A DNA stretch of 64,000 nt from Companilactobacillus formosensis (GTDB lineage: Bacteria; Bacillota; Bacilli; Lactobacillales; Lactobacillaceae), in NCBI RefSeq assembly GCF_005405305.1, contig NZ_BJDU01000002.1:186001-250000 (forward strand), read 5' to 3'. Position numbers and translations under genes: made by a program. This document shows positions 48,801 to 58,939 of this stretch, in pieces. Positions within the stretch are counted from its first letter, which is position 1, and every line of letters starts with the position of its first letter. The notes below the pieces were generated by a model. The model was not told where the DNA came from. It made no database searches and saw nothing but the letters and a program-made list of their open reading frames with translations.

Positions 48801-50694
48801 GTGCGCCCGGCATGGGCGCTAACTTGGTGGCGAAAGTCCACTGTGAGCCGTAGTAGTCGGAATCACTAGCCGAGGGCAAGGGTGTCCACCGTGAGGTGAA
48901 ATCTGAAGGAAGCCTAAAGCAAAATACTGAGCTGATGAACAAAAATCGACTATAAGGCTAGAAATACTGGATAAACCTGCGACCCAAGAAAAAGTCCTAT
49001 ACTACTCGAAAGTATTCCTAGTAAAGTCGGCAGCTACATGGTACGAAAGTTAGCGTTCTTACCCGGGGAGGTCTGTACCATATGTTTGGCAAGAAAACGA
49101 AATGTATTCTACAAACAAACCAACCAGTGATGTTTGGCTGAATGATACAGAAGTCAGCCGAGGTCATAGTAGTCACTAGTGACGAAGGACCGAACATTAA
49201 TAATTCTTTTCGATATTGGAGGTGGAAGCGGTGCGACAATCGCAGAAAACAGAACAAAAAGCTGACCATCTGAGGATGATAGATTTGGAAAATCAAAAGC
49301 AATCAGAGGCGCGTAGTACCGCCTCTGGTGAGAATACGAACAAGAATGGCATTTCATTTAAAGAAATAGTTTTAAACAGAACCAATCTTAACTTGGCTTA
49401 CCAACGAGTGTATAGAAATAAAGGTGCACAAGGAATAGATGGAATGACTGTCTATGAGCTGTTTGACTATATCAAAGAGAATAAAACCCAATTGATAGAA
49501 TCACTAAGCAACCTTACCTATAAGCCTAAACCTGTCAGAAGAGTAGAGATACCTAAGCCCGATGGGTCGAAACGTAAGTTAGGTGTACCAACGGTCGTTG
49601 ACCGCTTAGTACAACAGGCCATTGCACAAGCAATGACGCCTGTGTTTGAGAATGTGTTTTCTGATAATAGTTTTGGATTTAGACCAAATCGAAGTGCCCA
49701 TGATGCCATAAAACGTGTCACAGAATTTTATAATCAAGGCTATCACTTTGTGATAGACCTTGACCTAAAATCGTACTTCGATACAGTCAATCATGACTTA
49801 CTAATGAAATTCATCAAGCAGTATATTGACGATGAATGGTTATTGAGAATGATTCGTAAATTTTTGACTAGTGGTGTAATGGATGGACAATTATTCCAAA
49901 AGTCCGAAAAAGGAACGCCACAAGGTGGTAACCTTTCGCCATTATTGGCTAATATCTATTTAAATGAACTCGATAAATTACTCGTGTCCCGTGGACATAA
50001 ATTTGTTCGCTATGCCGATGACTGTAATATTTATGTCAAAAGTAAACGAGCTGGATATCGGGTTCTTGAAAGTATTTCAAAATTTCTTGAGAAAGACTTG
50101 AAATTAACCATCAATCGAAAGAAAACCAAAGTTGGTTCTCCGTTAAGATTGAAATTTCTAGGATTTTCTCTCGGTATGTCTGCCAAGGGTGTTTATATAA
50201 GACCCAGCGGACAAGCTAAAAAGAGAGTCAAAAAATCACTCAAGTTAATGACAAAGAGGAATCGAGGCAGGAGCCTCGATGTTCTCTTTAAAGAGATACA
50301 TCAAAAGATGATAGGTTGGCTCAACTATTATGGAATTGGAAGTATGAAAACATTCATTAAAGATTTAGATGAATGGCTTCGTTCAAGAATCAGACAATAT
50401 ATCTGGAAATCATGGAAGAAAGTCAAAACCAGAATTAGAAACCTAGTAAAACTTGGTATGACAAAGAATCAGGCTCGCACCTTCGCTAACACCCGCAAGG
50501 GGTATTGGCGAACTGCGCATAGTAAGACCTTGTTATACACTTTAACGAATAGAAAACTCGAGTCCCTTGGGCTATTAAATATGTCCAAGAAACTCGAGTC
50601 TATTCAAAATGCTTAAATTAATGAACCGCCGTATACGGAACCGTACGTACGGTGGTGTGAGAGGTCGGTGACTAATTGTCACCTCCTACTCGAT
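48801..50694 (+). mobile_element. group IIC intron
   Basis: Self-splicing retroelement of 1894 nt. The 5' end GTGCGCCCGGCATGGGCG, the GGGTGTCCACCG and AATCTGAAGGAAGC blocks, TTCTTACCCGGGGAGGTCTG, and the domain V stem GAACCGCCGTATACGG/CCGTACGTACGGTGGT (50623-50656) match the well-known Oceanobacillus iheyensis group IIC intron closely. Domain VI is GGTGAC-TAATT-GTCACC and the 3' end is CTACTCGAT. It is inserted directly after a Rho-independent terminator, the target preference of class IIC. It looks complete: 5' ribozyme domains, an intact open reading frame in domain IV, and domains V-VI. Confidence 0.93.
49231..50616 (+). CDS. ltrA: group II intron reverse transcriptase/maturase
   Basis: 461 residues. 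Reverse transcriptase blocks RT1-7 include SFGFRPNRSAHDAIK, KGTPQGGNLSPLLANIYL and the active site YADD. The maturase X domain carries GWLNYYGIGSMKTF and WKSWKKVKTRIRNL, ending with RKGYWRTAHSKTLL. There is no HNH endonuclease domain, as expected for class IIC, which relies on single-stranded or fork DNA for insertion. I choose GTG 49231, 8 nt after GGAGG; an in-frame TTG at 49216 overlaps that site. No frameshift is visible, so the intron may be mobile. Confidence 0.95.
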   Translation: MRQSQKTEQKADHLRMIDLENQKQSEARSTASGENTNKNGISFKEIVLNRTNLNLAYQRVYRNKGAQGIDGMTVYELFDYIKENKTQLIESLSNLTYKPKPVRRVEIPKPDGSKRKLGVPTVVDRLVQQAIAQAMTPVFENVFSDNSFGFRPNRSAHDAIKRVTEFYNQGYHFVIDLDLKSYFDTVNHDLLMKFIKQYIDDEWLLRMIRKFLTSGVMDGQLFQKSEKGTPQGGNLSPLLANIYLNELDKLLVSRGHKFVRYADDCNIYVKSKRAGYRVLESISKFLEKDLKLTINRKKTKVGSPLRLKFLGFSLGMSAKGVYIRPSGQAKKRVKKSLKLMTKRNRGRSLDVLFKEIHQKMIGWLNYYGIGSMKTFIKDLDEWLRSRIRQYIWKSWKKVKTRIRNLVKLGMTKNQARTFANTRKGYWRTAHSKTLLYTLTNRKLESLGLLNMSKKLESIQNA

Positions 50695-57045: not shown

Positions 57046-57366
57046 TTAAAGTTTATTAGCAATATATTTTGATAGTTCTTGAATATTTTCTTCGTTCCGA
57101 CGATAGTAGGTCCATTTACCATGACGTTCAGAGATTAAAAGGCCACAATTTTGAAGATCACTCAAATATTTAGAAACAGTTGACTGTGCTAAGCCGGCAC
57201 GTTTAACAATATCAGCTACACAAATACCTCCTTTTTCATTCATCATGTAGCGAACTGTTTCACAGGATACTGAAGTGATTTCTTTTTCTGGATCTTTTAA
57301 CCATTGTAAAATATCTAATCTTGTTTGGTTGGATAGAGCCATAAATAATTTTGCATTAACATTCAT
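57046..57366 (-). CDS. ArsR-family transcriptional repressor
   Basis: 106 residues with a winged HTH (ICVADIVKRAGLAQSTVSKYLSDLQNCGLL) and wing SERHGKWTYYR. Cys in VSCETVR and GGICVAD lie near but do not form the usual ELCVCDL metal site, so the signal may not be a metal. The ATG is 7 nt downstream of the -10 box with no ribosome binding site: the mRNA seems leaderless. It precedes the arginase-family gene on the same strand and may regulate it and itself. Confidence 0.85.
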   Translation of the reverse strand: MNVNAKLFMALSNQTRLDILQWLKDPEKEITSVSCETVRYMMNEKGGICVADIVKRAGLAQSTVSKYLSDLQNCGLLISERHGKWTYYRRNEENIQELSKYIANKL

Positions 57367-57586: not shown

Positions 57587-57615
57587 TTGTAATTACCCCA
57601 ATATAAACATATAAT
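57587..57615 (+). promoter_or_regulatory. promoter of the EamA leader transcript
   Basis: TTGTAA (57587-57592), 17 nt, TATAAT (57610-57615). Transcription start near 57622, leaving about 139 nt of leader. Confidence 0.7.
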
Positions 57616-57650
57616 AAAAGTTATATTTCCTTCAAAAGGAGGCTTTCATT

Positions 57651-57698
57651 TTGTTATATTCACCATTATTTGAATGTGATGTACCTTCATACCACTAA
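57651..57698 (+). CDS. 15-residue leader peptide
   Basis: A strong AAAGGAGG site (57635-57642) is followed 8 nt later by a TTG and the frame MLYSPLFECDVPSYH, ending at TAA 57696-57698. The stop lies inside the first hairpin of the leader. The gene after it, the EamA transporter, also begins with TTG. The arrangement matches translational attenuators of the ermC/cat type. The amino-acid sequence is not a known arrest peptide to me. Confidence 0.6.
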   Translation: MLYSPLFECDVPSYH

Positions 57699-57755
57699 TC
57701 AGTGGTGTGAATCCGCTGATTTCTTAACTAATTAAGTAAATAAAGCGGAGGTTTC
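57687..57755 (+). promoter_or_regulatory. putative translational attenuator, four pairing segments
   Basis: Segments 1 and 2, TCATACCACT (57687-57696) and AGTGGTGTGA (57701-57710), form a 10-bp stem. Segments 3 and 4, TCCGC (57712-57716) and GCGGA (57745-57749), with inner CTTAA/TTAAG, hide the GCGGAGG ribosome binding site of the transporter. Segment 2 can alternatively pair with segment 3 (AGTGG with CCGCT), which would free segment 4. A ribosome stalled on the leader peptide would cover segment 1 and trigger this switch. Confidence 0.6.
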
Positions 57756-57760
57756 ATATT

Positions 57761-58636
57761 TTGAACAAGCACAAAATAATAGGTAGCATATATTTAACAT
57801 TAGCAGCATGTATTTGGGGTGGGATGTTTGTCGTCGTCAAATCAGTCGTCAGTGAAGTTCCCCCAATTCAATTGGTTTGGTTACGGTATCTGATTGGTGC
57901 AGTTGCCTTATTAGTAATCGCCTTAGTCGCAAAAATTCAGTGGCACTGGGATAAAAGAAATTTATTATTGATTTTCTTAATCGGATTAATTGGTGATACG
58001 ATTTCTATTGTTGCTCAAGAAACAGGCACGATGTTTTCTTCAGCTCAATTAGGCTCAGTTGTGACAACAGCAACACCAGCATTCATGATCATCTTCAGTT
58101 GGCCATTATTAAAAATCAGACCAACCAAGGGTAAGTGGATCAGTTTATTTCTAGCAATATTAGGTGTTGTCTCAATTGTCGGTTTCCATTTTAACGGAAA
58201 GAATCTATTACTAGGAGTAATCTTCTTGTTGATTGCTGGTCTTACTTGGGCCTTGATGTCAGTCTTGATTGAATTAGTTGATAAGAAATACAGCATCATC
58301 CAAGTTACTTTTTTAGGTACTTTGGTTGCTATTGTTTGTTTAACACCTGTTATTTTCATACAAAAGAGAACCTTATTAAATATCTCCTGGGGTAGCGTGC
58401 ACATTTGGTTAAGTCTTTTATACTTAGGAATCGTTTCTACTGCAATTGCATTTTTCCTTTGGAATAAAGGATTAATCTTATTTCACAGTCCAACATCAGG
58501 ATTGTTCTTTTTGTTTCAACCAATCGTTGGGACATTGTTAGGATGGATATTTTTAAATGAATCAATCAAAGTTGGATTTTTTGTCGGCTTAGGATTGATT
58601 TTAGTAAGTATCGTCGTATCTATTAGAAACGAATAA
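57761..58636 (+). CDS. EamA-family (DMT superfamily) transporter
   Basis: 291 residues with ten membrane segments and two EamA halves (LAACIWGGMFVVVKS near the start; SPTSGLFFLFQPIVGTLLG in the second). DMT transporters move amino acids, metabolites or drugs, mostly outward. The start is a TTG 9 nt after GGAGGT, which is buried in a leader hairpin. A leader peptide precedes it, hinting at induction by a compound or starvation that stalls ribosomes. It is a single gene ending at a terminator. Confidence 0.88.
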   Translation: MNKHKIIGSIYLTLAACIWGGMFVVVKSVVSEVPPIQLVWLRYLIGAVALLVIALVAKIQWHWDKRNLLLIFLIGLIGDTISIVAQETGTMFSSAQLGSVVTTATPAFMIIFSWPLLKIRPTKGKWISLFLAILGVVSIVGFHFNGKNLLLGVIFLLIAGLTWALMSVLIELVDKKYSIIQVTFLGTLVAIVCLTPVIFIQKRTLLNISWGSVHIWLSLLYLGIVSTAIAFFLWNKGLILFHSPTSGLFFLFQPIVGTLLGWIFLNESIKVGFFVGLGLILVSIVVSIRNE

Positions 58637-58641
58637 TAAAA

Positions 58642-58688
58642 ATAAAGCCAGTTAACTCATTTTATATTGTGAGTTGACTGGCTTTTTA
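58642..58688. terminator. bidirectional terminator after the EamA gene
   Basis: AAAGCCAGTTAACTCA pairs with TGAGTTGACTGGCTTT (one G-U) with T runs. The 3' end of the phd frame reads through it. Confidence 0.88.
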
Positions 58689-58905
58689 ATTGATTTAAAG
58701 ATTCATCTAAATTTTTACGGTTAGCTTCTGTACCAAGTAAGTACATGGTTTCTTGCCAAGATTGGAATTCTTTTTCTGAGATAATAACCACATTACGATT
58801 CTTAGGCTTTGTAATAATTACATGATCATCAAAATCTGCTACATCATCAGTTATTTTTTTTAGATTTTTTCTTGCTTCAGAGAGAGTAGTTGCAGTTGTT
58901 GTCAT
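58657..58905 (-). CDS. orphan Phd/YefM-type antitoxin
   Basis: 82 residues with the Phd N-terminus (TTTATTLSEARKNLKKITDDV) and IITKPKNRNVVIISEKEFQSWQETMYLLG, the usual YefM block. ATG 58905 follows AAAGGAG by 8 nt; a TTG at 58911 is too close. The last six residues (STHNIK) come from the terminator hairpin, so the original end is lost. No RelE/YoeB toxin follows. It may be a remnant, or act on a toxin encoded elsewhere. Confidence 0.82.
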   Translation of the reverse strand: MTTTATTLSEARKNLKKITDDVADFDDHVIITKPKNRNVVIISEKEFQSWQETMYLLGTEANRKNLDESLNQLKSQSTHNIK

Positions 58906-58939
58906 AATCAAGACTCCTTTTTATTATCTTTTCTTGAAA

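Follow-up and report, generated by a model that had tools for sequence, protein, structure and literature searches.

A probable translational attenuator with a conserved leader peptide in front of EamA transporter genes in Bacilli

How is a transporter gene controlled when a 15-codon open reading frame (ORF) with its own ribosome binding site lies directly in front of it? This question is raised by a locus of Companilactobacillus formosensis (contig NZ_BJDU01000002.1, positions 186,001 to 250,000), where such a frame precedes a gene for an EamA transporter; the whole stretch of 64,000 nucleotides (nt) is called the window here, and positions are counted from its first letter. The original prediction, made from the letters alone, had taken the region for an ermC-like translational attenuator with a new leader peptide. 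To our knowledge, few small-molecule-sensing leader peptides are known, and most of them are linked to clinical antibiotic resistance. On our analysis, the element is best explained as a translational attenuator that works through a conserved arrest peptide, a reading to which we assign a probability of about 0.77. The locus has the following features.

57587-57615, plus strand: promoter-like TTGTAA-17-TATAAT (consensus match only, 10/12 positions).
57634-57642, plus strand: Shine-Dalgarno (SD) site of the leader, AAAAGGAGG (direct reading).
57651 (TTG) to 57698 (TAA), plus strand: leader ORF MLYSPLFECDVPSYH, 15 codons (direct reading, conservation).
57672-57686, plus strand: core codons E8-C9-D10-V11-P12, the proposed arrest motif (conservation, stall-position model).
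57686-57696, plus strand: segment 1, the 5' arm of hairpin 1:2 (folding, covariation).
57697-57711, plus strand: segment 2, pairing with segment 1 via 57701-57711 and with segment 3 via 57697-57705 (folding, covariation).
57712-57721, plus strand: segment 3, pairing with segment 4 via 57712-57717 and with segment 2 via 57713-57721 (folding, covariation).
57744-57749, plus strand: segment 4 (AGCGGA), overlapping the transporter SD (folding, covariation).
57747-57752, plus strand: transporter SD GGAGGT, predicted to be sequestered in stem 3:4, which covers its GGA.
57761-58636, plus strand: EamA (DMT superfamily) transporter, 291 amino acids, TTG start (Pfam PF00892, E 1.5e-41).

Direct reading places the leader and its SD where they had been predicted. 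The RNA from 57622 to 57775, whose folding had been proposed as a check, has a minimum free energy of -42.9 kcal/mol (z = -4.94), and none of 200 shuffled sequences was equally stable. The hairpin claimed at the leader stop codon is present, with 11 bp (57686-57696/57701-57711) instead of 10, and the second hairpin, said to hide the transporter SD, corresponds to the predicted stem 3:4 (57712-57717/57744-57749), which covers part of that site. Segment 2 can also pair with segment 3 as proposed (AATCAGTGG/CCGCTGATT, 57697-57705/57713-57721, 9 bp possible). A consensus match does exist where a promoter had been seen, but the 2-kb region holds 7 promoter-like sites against a shuffled mean of 10.3 (standard deviation 3.4), so the match at 57587-57615 is not above chance. 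Because a scan of the window found no terminator-like site from 57643 to 57761, between leader and gene, the switch would work at translation, and transcription attenuation was rejected. A biosynthetic attenuator of the trp/his type was rejected as well, since a run of regulatory codons was not seen in the leaders and the scan of the window found no terminator.

Is the small frame conserved? In a search with the transporter protein, 42 of 60 genomes were matched at E 0.001, and the upstream region was read at 47 places with E below 1e-80 and also at the first fragment of a broken gene, which makes 48. The same leader is present in 15 genomes of the genus, where YSPLxECDVP is kept (YYPL in one) and the final codons differ. 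When an EamA protein taken from a leader locus served as the query, 33 of 301 Lactobacillaceae genomes gave a match at E 1e-45; outside the genus, the leader accompanies the orthologous protein in 20 of 25 genomes, the query's own included. Variants from this protein walk are MIAPLFENDVPFACR, MLYAPLFENDVPAVA, one ATQFENDVP with a longer tail and two ENDQP. With a B3/4 protein, from a second family found behind the leader, as query, 3 of 295 genomes gave a match at E 1e-30: the query genome itself, one with the leader MFFAPLFENDVPNAL and one with none. The protein searches gave 37 leaders, two of them the queries (34 extracted by script, one entered manually and the two ENDQP forms identified by eye), among which P5 is kept in 34 and L6 in 36; position 11 is Val, or Gln in two leaders.

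Pattern searches trace the peptide further. An exact scan of 84,980 species for YSPLxECDVP returned 14 stretches, by name all Lactobacillales (9 Companilactobacillus, 2 Lentilactobacillus, 1 Fructobacillus and 2 Enterococcus), and all 14 have a small frame, an SD-like sequence ahead of it and a gene directly after it. The looser PLxECDVP occurs in 38 of 397 Lactobacillaceae genomes, spread over 13 of the 40 genera (reversed control, 1), and 37 of the 38 are true leaders. Across the order, 13 of 395 genomes were matched (control, 0) and 12 of these are leaders; the five new ones all belong to the Enterococcus family, two being identical to the E. mundtii and E. plantarum loci. An ATG or TTG, itself behind an SD-like sequence, stands exactly four codons ahead of PL at 46 of 47 distinct pattern places, and the remaining one is a chance match. 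With Asn allowed at the second core codon, 17 of 279 Bacilli genomes were matched against 7 control matches, and class-wide matches are therefore counted only after reading; reading confirmed true leaders in 14 Bacilli genomes, at 15 of 18 places, one of them in the window; each of the other 14 stands before an EamA gene in another family of the class. One further order gave matches in 7 of 39 genomes, all of them leaders and 5 seen already. The phylum-wide search matched 2 of 129 genomes, namely the window and one outside the class, with MFLAPLFENDVPDALLS before an EamA gene. The ENDVP form was searched in genome samples only. Among plasmids, 10 records hold EamA relatives, and the leader is present in all four of those read upstream; 4 further plasmid records hold B3/4 relatives. 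The named carriers are all Bacillales plasmids, in Priestia megaterium QM B1551 (pBM500), P. aryabhattai, Niallia taxi and Bacillus badius. The core M..PLxE(C/N)DVP is found in Lactobacillaceae, Enterococcus, Bacillaceae plasmids, other Bacilli families and one genome outside the class. Chance pattern matches rejected after reading are L096/L113 (the same place), L160, L162, L163 and L170-L172. Phage-borne leaders were also rejected: PLFENDVP has 3 exact viral matches, all within longer frames that lack the leader start, and the stricter ECDVP form has 0.

Do the pairings change together with the peptide kept? The catalogue comprises 69 leaders, for which an SD and a start codon at the same place were both required (L146 is outside it because its tail is longer than allowed). 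L052, L060, L098 and L159 have no downstream frame of the length asked, leaving 65, and two more were set aside from the folding, L104 because the contig ends within its transporter and L126 because of a broken frame. The resulting 63 leaders fall into 49 long forms and 14 short forms, the latter with fewer than 40 nt between leader stop and SD. Among 29 long forms that share under 80% identity, pairing with the segment's own partner is stronger than with a swapped partner for 1:2 (-13.1 vs -7.3 kcal/mol; 0/5000 permutations as good), for 2:3 (-14.5 vs -10.4 kcal/mol; 0/5000) and for 3:4 (-11.3 vs -10.0 kcal/mol; 1/5000). In the 14 short forms, which include two near-identical pairs, the leader end pairs better with its own SD region than with a swapped one (-8.1 vs -5.7 kcal/mol, 0/5000). 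Moreover, an exact complement of the Val11-Pro12 codons (GTNCC) lies at the SD in 15 of 63 leaders (permutation mean 5.5 and maximum 12 in 2000 permutations), and in 11 of 45 vs 3.7 with repeats removed, so this pairing is supported in a subset only. Lack of conservation of the small frame or of the pairing in relatives had been named beforehand as a finding that would refute the attenuator; in the covariation check, both the peptide and the segment pairings proved to be conserved or covarying.

Well-conserved stems might also mean that the RNA alone is the switch, as a riboswitch or thermometer, with a leader ORF that is decorative or just keeps ribosomes passing, and the excess of exact GTNCC complements indicates that some codons are constrained as RNA. 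However, the layout shifts between long and short forms while the peptide core stays. Codons 8-12 show only synonymous variation besides Cys/Asn at position 9 (35 tabulated leaders; partly by construction), whereas codons 13-15 change residue freely. The element has no match in Rfam either (the window at the gathering threshold, five loci at E up to 1), a result on which a known riboswitch or other Rfam RNA was rejected. We regard an RNA-only switch as improbable. A plain translational coupler with low constitutive expression and no inducer is less probable still: it would accord with the 'sleeping beauty' EamA amino-acid exporters of Bacillus subtilis, such as AexA, which have a link to toxic amino acids and are described as expressed at very low levels until, typically, a mutation in a regulator gene activates them (PMC11005379, available text), but coupling requires neither a conserved peptide sequence nor a competing 2:3 helix.

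Where, then, would a ribosome have to halt for the gene to open? With a model ribosome that covers the RNA from 14 nt upstream of the first P-site base to 15 nt downstream of it, the median unpaired probability of the SD over the 63 leaders is 0.07 in the free RNA, 0.42 with D10 and 0.40 with V11 in the P site, and lower on either side. The free RNA is predicted to keep this probability at or below 0.25 in 51 of 63 leaders. The observed mean base is 0.128 and the rise at D10 0.276, compared with 0.226 and 0.122 in intergenic shuffles (rise of 0.086-0.148 over 12 replicates, each below the observed rise); when each leader is compared with its own shuffles, the base is under the shuffled mean in 51/63 and the rise over it in 46/63. 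Among 11 positions tried, the best P site is D10 or V11 in 33/63 leaders, and the modelled rise at one of the two is at least 0.2 in 45/63, but the window itself does not show it at equilibrium. By two lines of evidence, protein sequence and RNA folding, the conserved core thus appears to lie where a stalled ribosome would open the gene.

A pause at this site could also arise without any particular arrest by the nascent chain, if one aminoacyl-tRNA, that for Pro, Asp, Val or Cys, were short or mischarged, and starvation for a particular aminoacyl-tRNA was among the triggers originally envisaged. P12 and D10 do lie at the modelled stall site and are invariant in the leaders read, and the genes behind the leader include a deacylase-like one. 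A shortage of one aminoacyl-tRNA is nevertheless an unlikely trigger, because the codons around the stall site encode no repeated residue and position 9 can be Cys or Asn. Pro is the one residue present twice in the conserved part, and a stall at P5 would probably come too early; position 11, too, varies between Val and Gln, and the conservation of P5 and L6 concerns residues away from the decoding site. Nascent-chain arrest on a small molecule fits better than aminoacyl-tRNA starvation.

On the arrest-peptide attenuator that we favor, the leader would be translated from its own SD, as the SD, the start codon and the conservation suggest, while the SD of the gene is hidden in a predicted stem that covariation supports. 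The nascent M..PLxE(C/N)DVP, together with a small molecule on the ribosome or one acting on its tRNA, would halt the ribosome when Asp10 or Val11 occupies the P site and Val11 or Pro12 the A site, as the conserved core and the model suggest. The halted ribosome would cover segment 1, and the freed segment 2 would pair with segment 3, a predicted step that covariation supports but that the equilibrium fold of the window makes doubtful there; segment 4 with the SD would then be released for translation of the transporter. With the short form, it would be enough for the ribosome to cover the strand that pairs with the SD.

Several observations weigh against this picture. In the window RNA with a ribosome at D10 or V11, equilibrium folding keeps 3:4 (-19.8 kcal/mol, vs -15.1 with 2:3 forced) because of extra pairing near the start codon. 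The window's clade of six leaders has a mean SD unpaired probability of 0.16 in the free RNA, 0.14 at D10 and 0.20 at V11, and it peaks at codon 14 (0.38). Over all 63 leaders, the rise at D10/V11 is below 0.2 in 18 and below 0.05 in 7, three of the latter in the window's clade. The three-stem layout implied by 'ermC-like' holds for the window, but 14 of the 63 leaders, the short forms, have too little room for it. The transporter stands without a visible leader in 5 of the 25 non-genus genomes and in the type B/C paralogues. Finally, the invariance of the core is partly by construction, as the extraction sought E(C/N)D(V/Q)P and the pattern behind much of the catalogue fixes the core; what does not depend on the extraction pattern is only the constant spacing from the start codon, the SD and the flanking residues.

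In the model, the window folds less cooperatively than most relatives and is among the poorer cases. The 2:3 pairing is its best fold only in the nascent transcript, before segment 4 exists. In the window and its closest relatives, the SD is predicted to stay mostly closed at equilibrium even with a ribosome at D10 or V11, and it would open there only if segments 2 and 3 paired before segment 4 was transcribed. In Companilactobacillus paralimentarius (L056), the peptide is kept and most of segments 2 and 3 is missing; the leader end can pair directly with the SD, which resembles a natural conversion from the long to the short form.

The leaderless transporters bear on the history of the element. 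No leader was visible upstream of the B3/4 gene of L116 or of the transporters of G091 (two read), G154, G164, G206 and G319, the call for G206 being unsure, as its match lacks its start. In a tree of 64 EamA proteins, 12 of 14 leaderless rows and 7 leader-bearing rows form one supported group of 19. This grouping suggests later loss or replacement of the leader. Some paralogues have other leaders. Within the genus, the leader of a second EamA paralogue is of another kind: it is ~110 nt long, strongly conserved and seemingly non-coding (G000:C4:50208 (L036), L017, L018, L019, L021, L032, L039, L041, L043-L046 and L049), with a predicted junction and the SD region paired to an upstream strand. 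Two-sided changes occur in 10 of its 31 predicted pairs (14 aligned), several of which may be caused by L031, which is of another type. No Rfam match at E 1 was found in the loci tested; this leader is a candidate for a regulatory RNA that is so far unclassified, and it may descend from the ECDVP leader. Paralogues of a third EamA type (G000:C4:52153 (L036), L020, L016 and L033) have another short leader with possible small hairpins and no recognisable peptide.

Which genes does the leader precede? The original prediction had tied the element to EamA genes, and this specificity did not hold. Among the 64 distinct leader sequences with a downstream frame, some of them from close relatives, 52 stand before EamA genes, 10 before B3/4 genes and 2 before GNAT acetyltransferase genes; Pfam confirmed 10/10 B3/4, 2/2 GNAT and 4 EamA, and the other EamA were assigned via a shared N-terminal motif. 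The B3/4 proteins are relatives of the canavanyl-tRNA deacylase CtdA, whose structure (PDB 9f7e) matches the B3/4 protein of L110 at E 1.1e-5. CtdA strips canavanine from tRNA-Arg and is often under guanidine riboswitches (PMC10018355, available text). Sensing of canavanine via the common Arg15 codon was rejected: 7 of 10 B3/4-linked leaders and most ENDVP leaders do not end in Arg, and pairing can account for the codon. For the window transporter, the best NCBIfam match is 2A78, a carboxylate/amino acid/amine transporter, under its cut-off; an EamA comparison with solved structures gave no match at 0.001.

Export, tRNA proofreading and acetylation are three ways against a toxic amino acid, and for this reason our guess is that the inducer would be a toxic amino acid or another translation poison that the regulated proteins remove; that it is of the amino-acid type can only be put forward tentatively. 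A broader view, somewhat short of an even bet, is that E(C/N)DVP leaders are ligand-dependent arrest peptides used across the Bacilli before three unrelated detoxification functions. The leader is common to Lactobacillales and Bacillales, and since its RNA layout can be long or short and the gene behind it can belong to any of three unrelated families, its peptide part would be separable from its RNA part. If the broader view is true, it would define a previously unrecognised antimetabolite regulon, whose natural inducer might be a toxic amino acid from plants or microbes, or else a translation inhibitor of the aminoacyl type. As the core is shared, export, tRNA editing and acetylation are predicted to answer to one common signal; one reporter might then be enough to find the inducer as well as the substrates of these little-understood proteins, and the leader itself could serve as a biosensor to find the inducer. 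EamA exporters may look silent in the laboratory possibly because the inducer is not given.

Other observations were made around these loci. In L060, L121, L098 and L159, the leaders are intact and the transporter copies are broken by stops or frameshifts. The sole plasmid relative found of the leader-linked GNAT (L176, Staphylococcus capitis plasmid NZ_CP110786.1, 47% identity) adjoins a cyclodipeptide-synthase-associated P450 gene, and in this one plasmid GNAT record read upstream the leader peptide was not seen. In the window, an ArsR-family regulator (57046-57366, minus strand) is divergent from the attenuator, with a promoter-like TTGACA-16-TATGAT (57400-57373) directed towards it. A YefM-type antitoxin gene lies at 58657-58911 (minus strand) and a group II intron, with three Rfam matches, at 48885-50694 (plus strand).

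How does the element compare with known systems? In cat-type attenuators, the leader region pairs directly with the SD region, and the present short forms likewise pair the leader end with it; the peptide and the targets differ, and here the same peptide serves both layouts. In erm attenuators, the gene SD is hidden in 3:4. The erm leaders (ErmCL, ErmBL) resemble the present element in having a short leader with its own SD and a 1:2/3:4 versus 2:3 pairing, whereas the present element has another peptide, targets other than rRNA methylases, short forms and three unrelated families under one leader. ErmBL stalling is placed at its tenth codon, Asp (PMC8274638, available text), and Asp10 is also at the proposed halt of the present leader. 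As with CtdA (PMC10018355, available text), a deacylase relative would be switched on by a sensor in the 5' leader, but the sensor here is a leader peptide and not a guanidine riboswitch, and Arg lies outside the conserved core. AexA is likewise an EamA-family exporter, but it is under the transcription factor AerA, and the word 'leader' is absent from the available text of PMC11005379. The ykkC subtype 2d orphan riboswitches, whose ligand is given as unknown, are also 5' leader elements that control EamA transporters; they are structured RNAs for which no leader peptide is described in the available part of the source (PMC7266159), and the present element lacks an Rfam match. The original prediction knew of no attenuator of this kind for EamA genes, and the literature searched contained no paper joining EamA, a leader peptide and translational attenuation, nor did titles and abstract starts in further searches describe such an element. 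The core peptide strings gave no relevant paper (one unrelated ECDVP match) in a literature that mostly leaves out subscription journals. The mechanism class is known from erm and cat, and the peptide family, its spread in Bacilli and the set of exporter, deacylase and acetyltransferase genes under it appear to be new.
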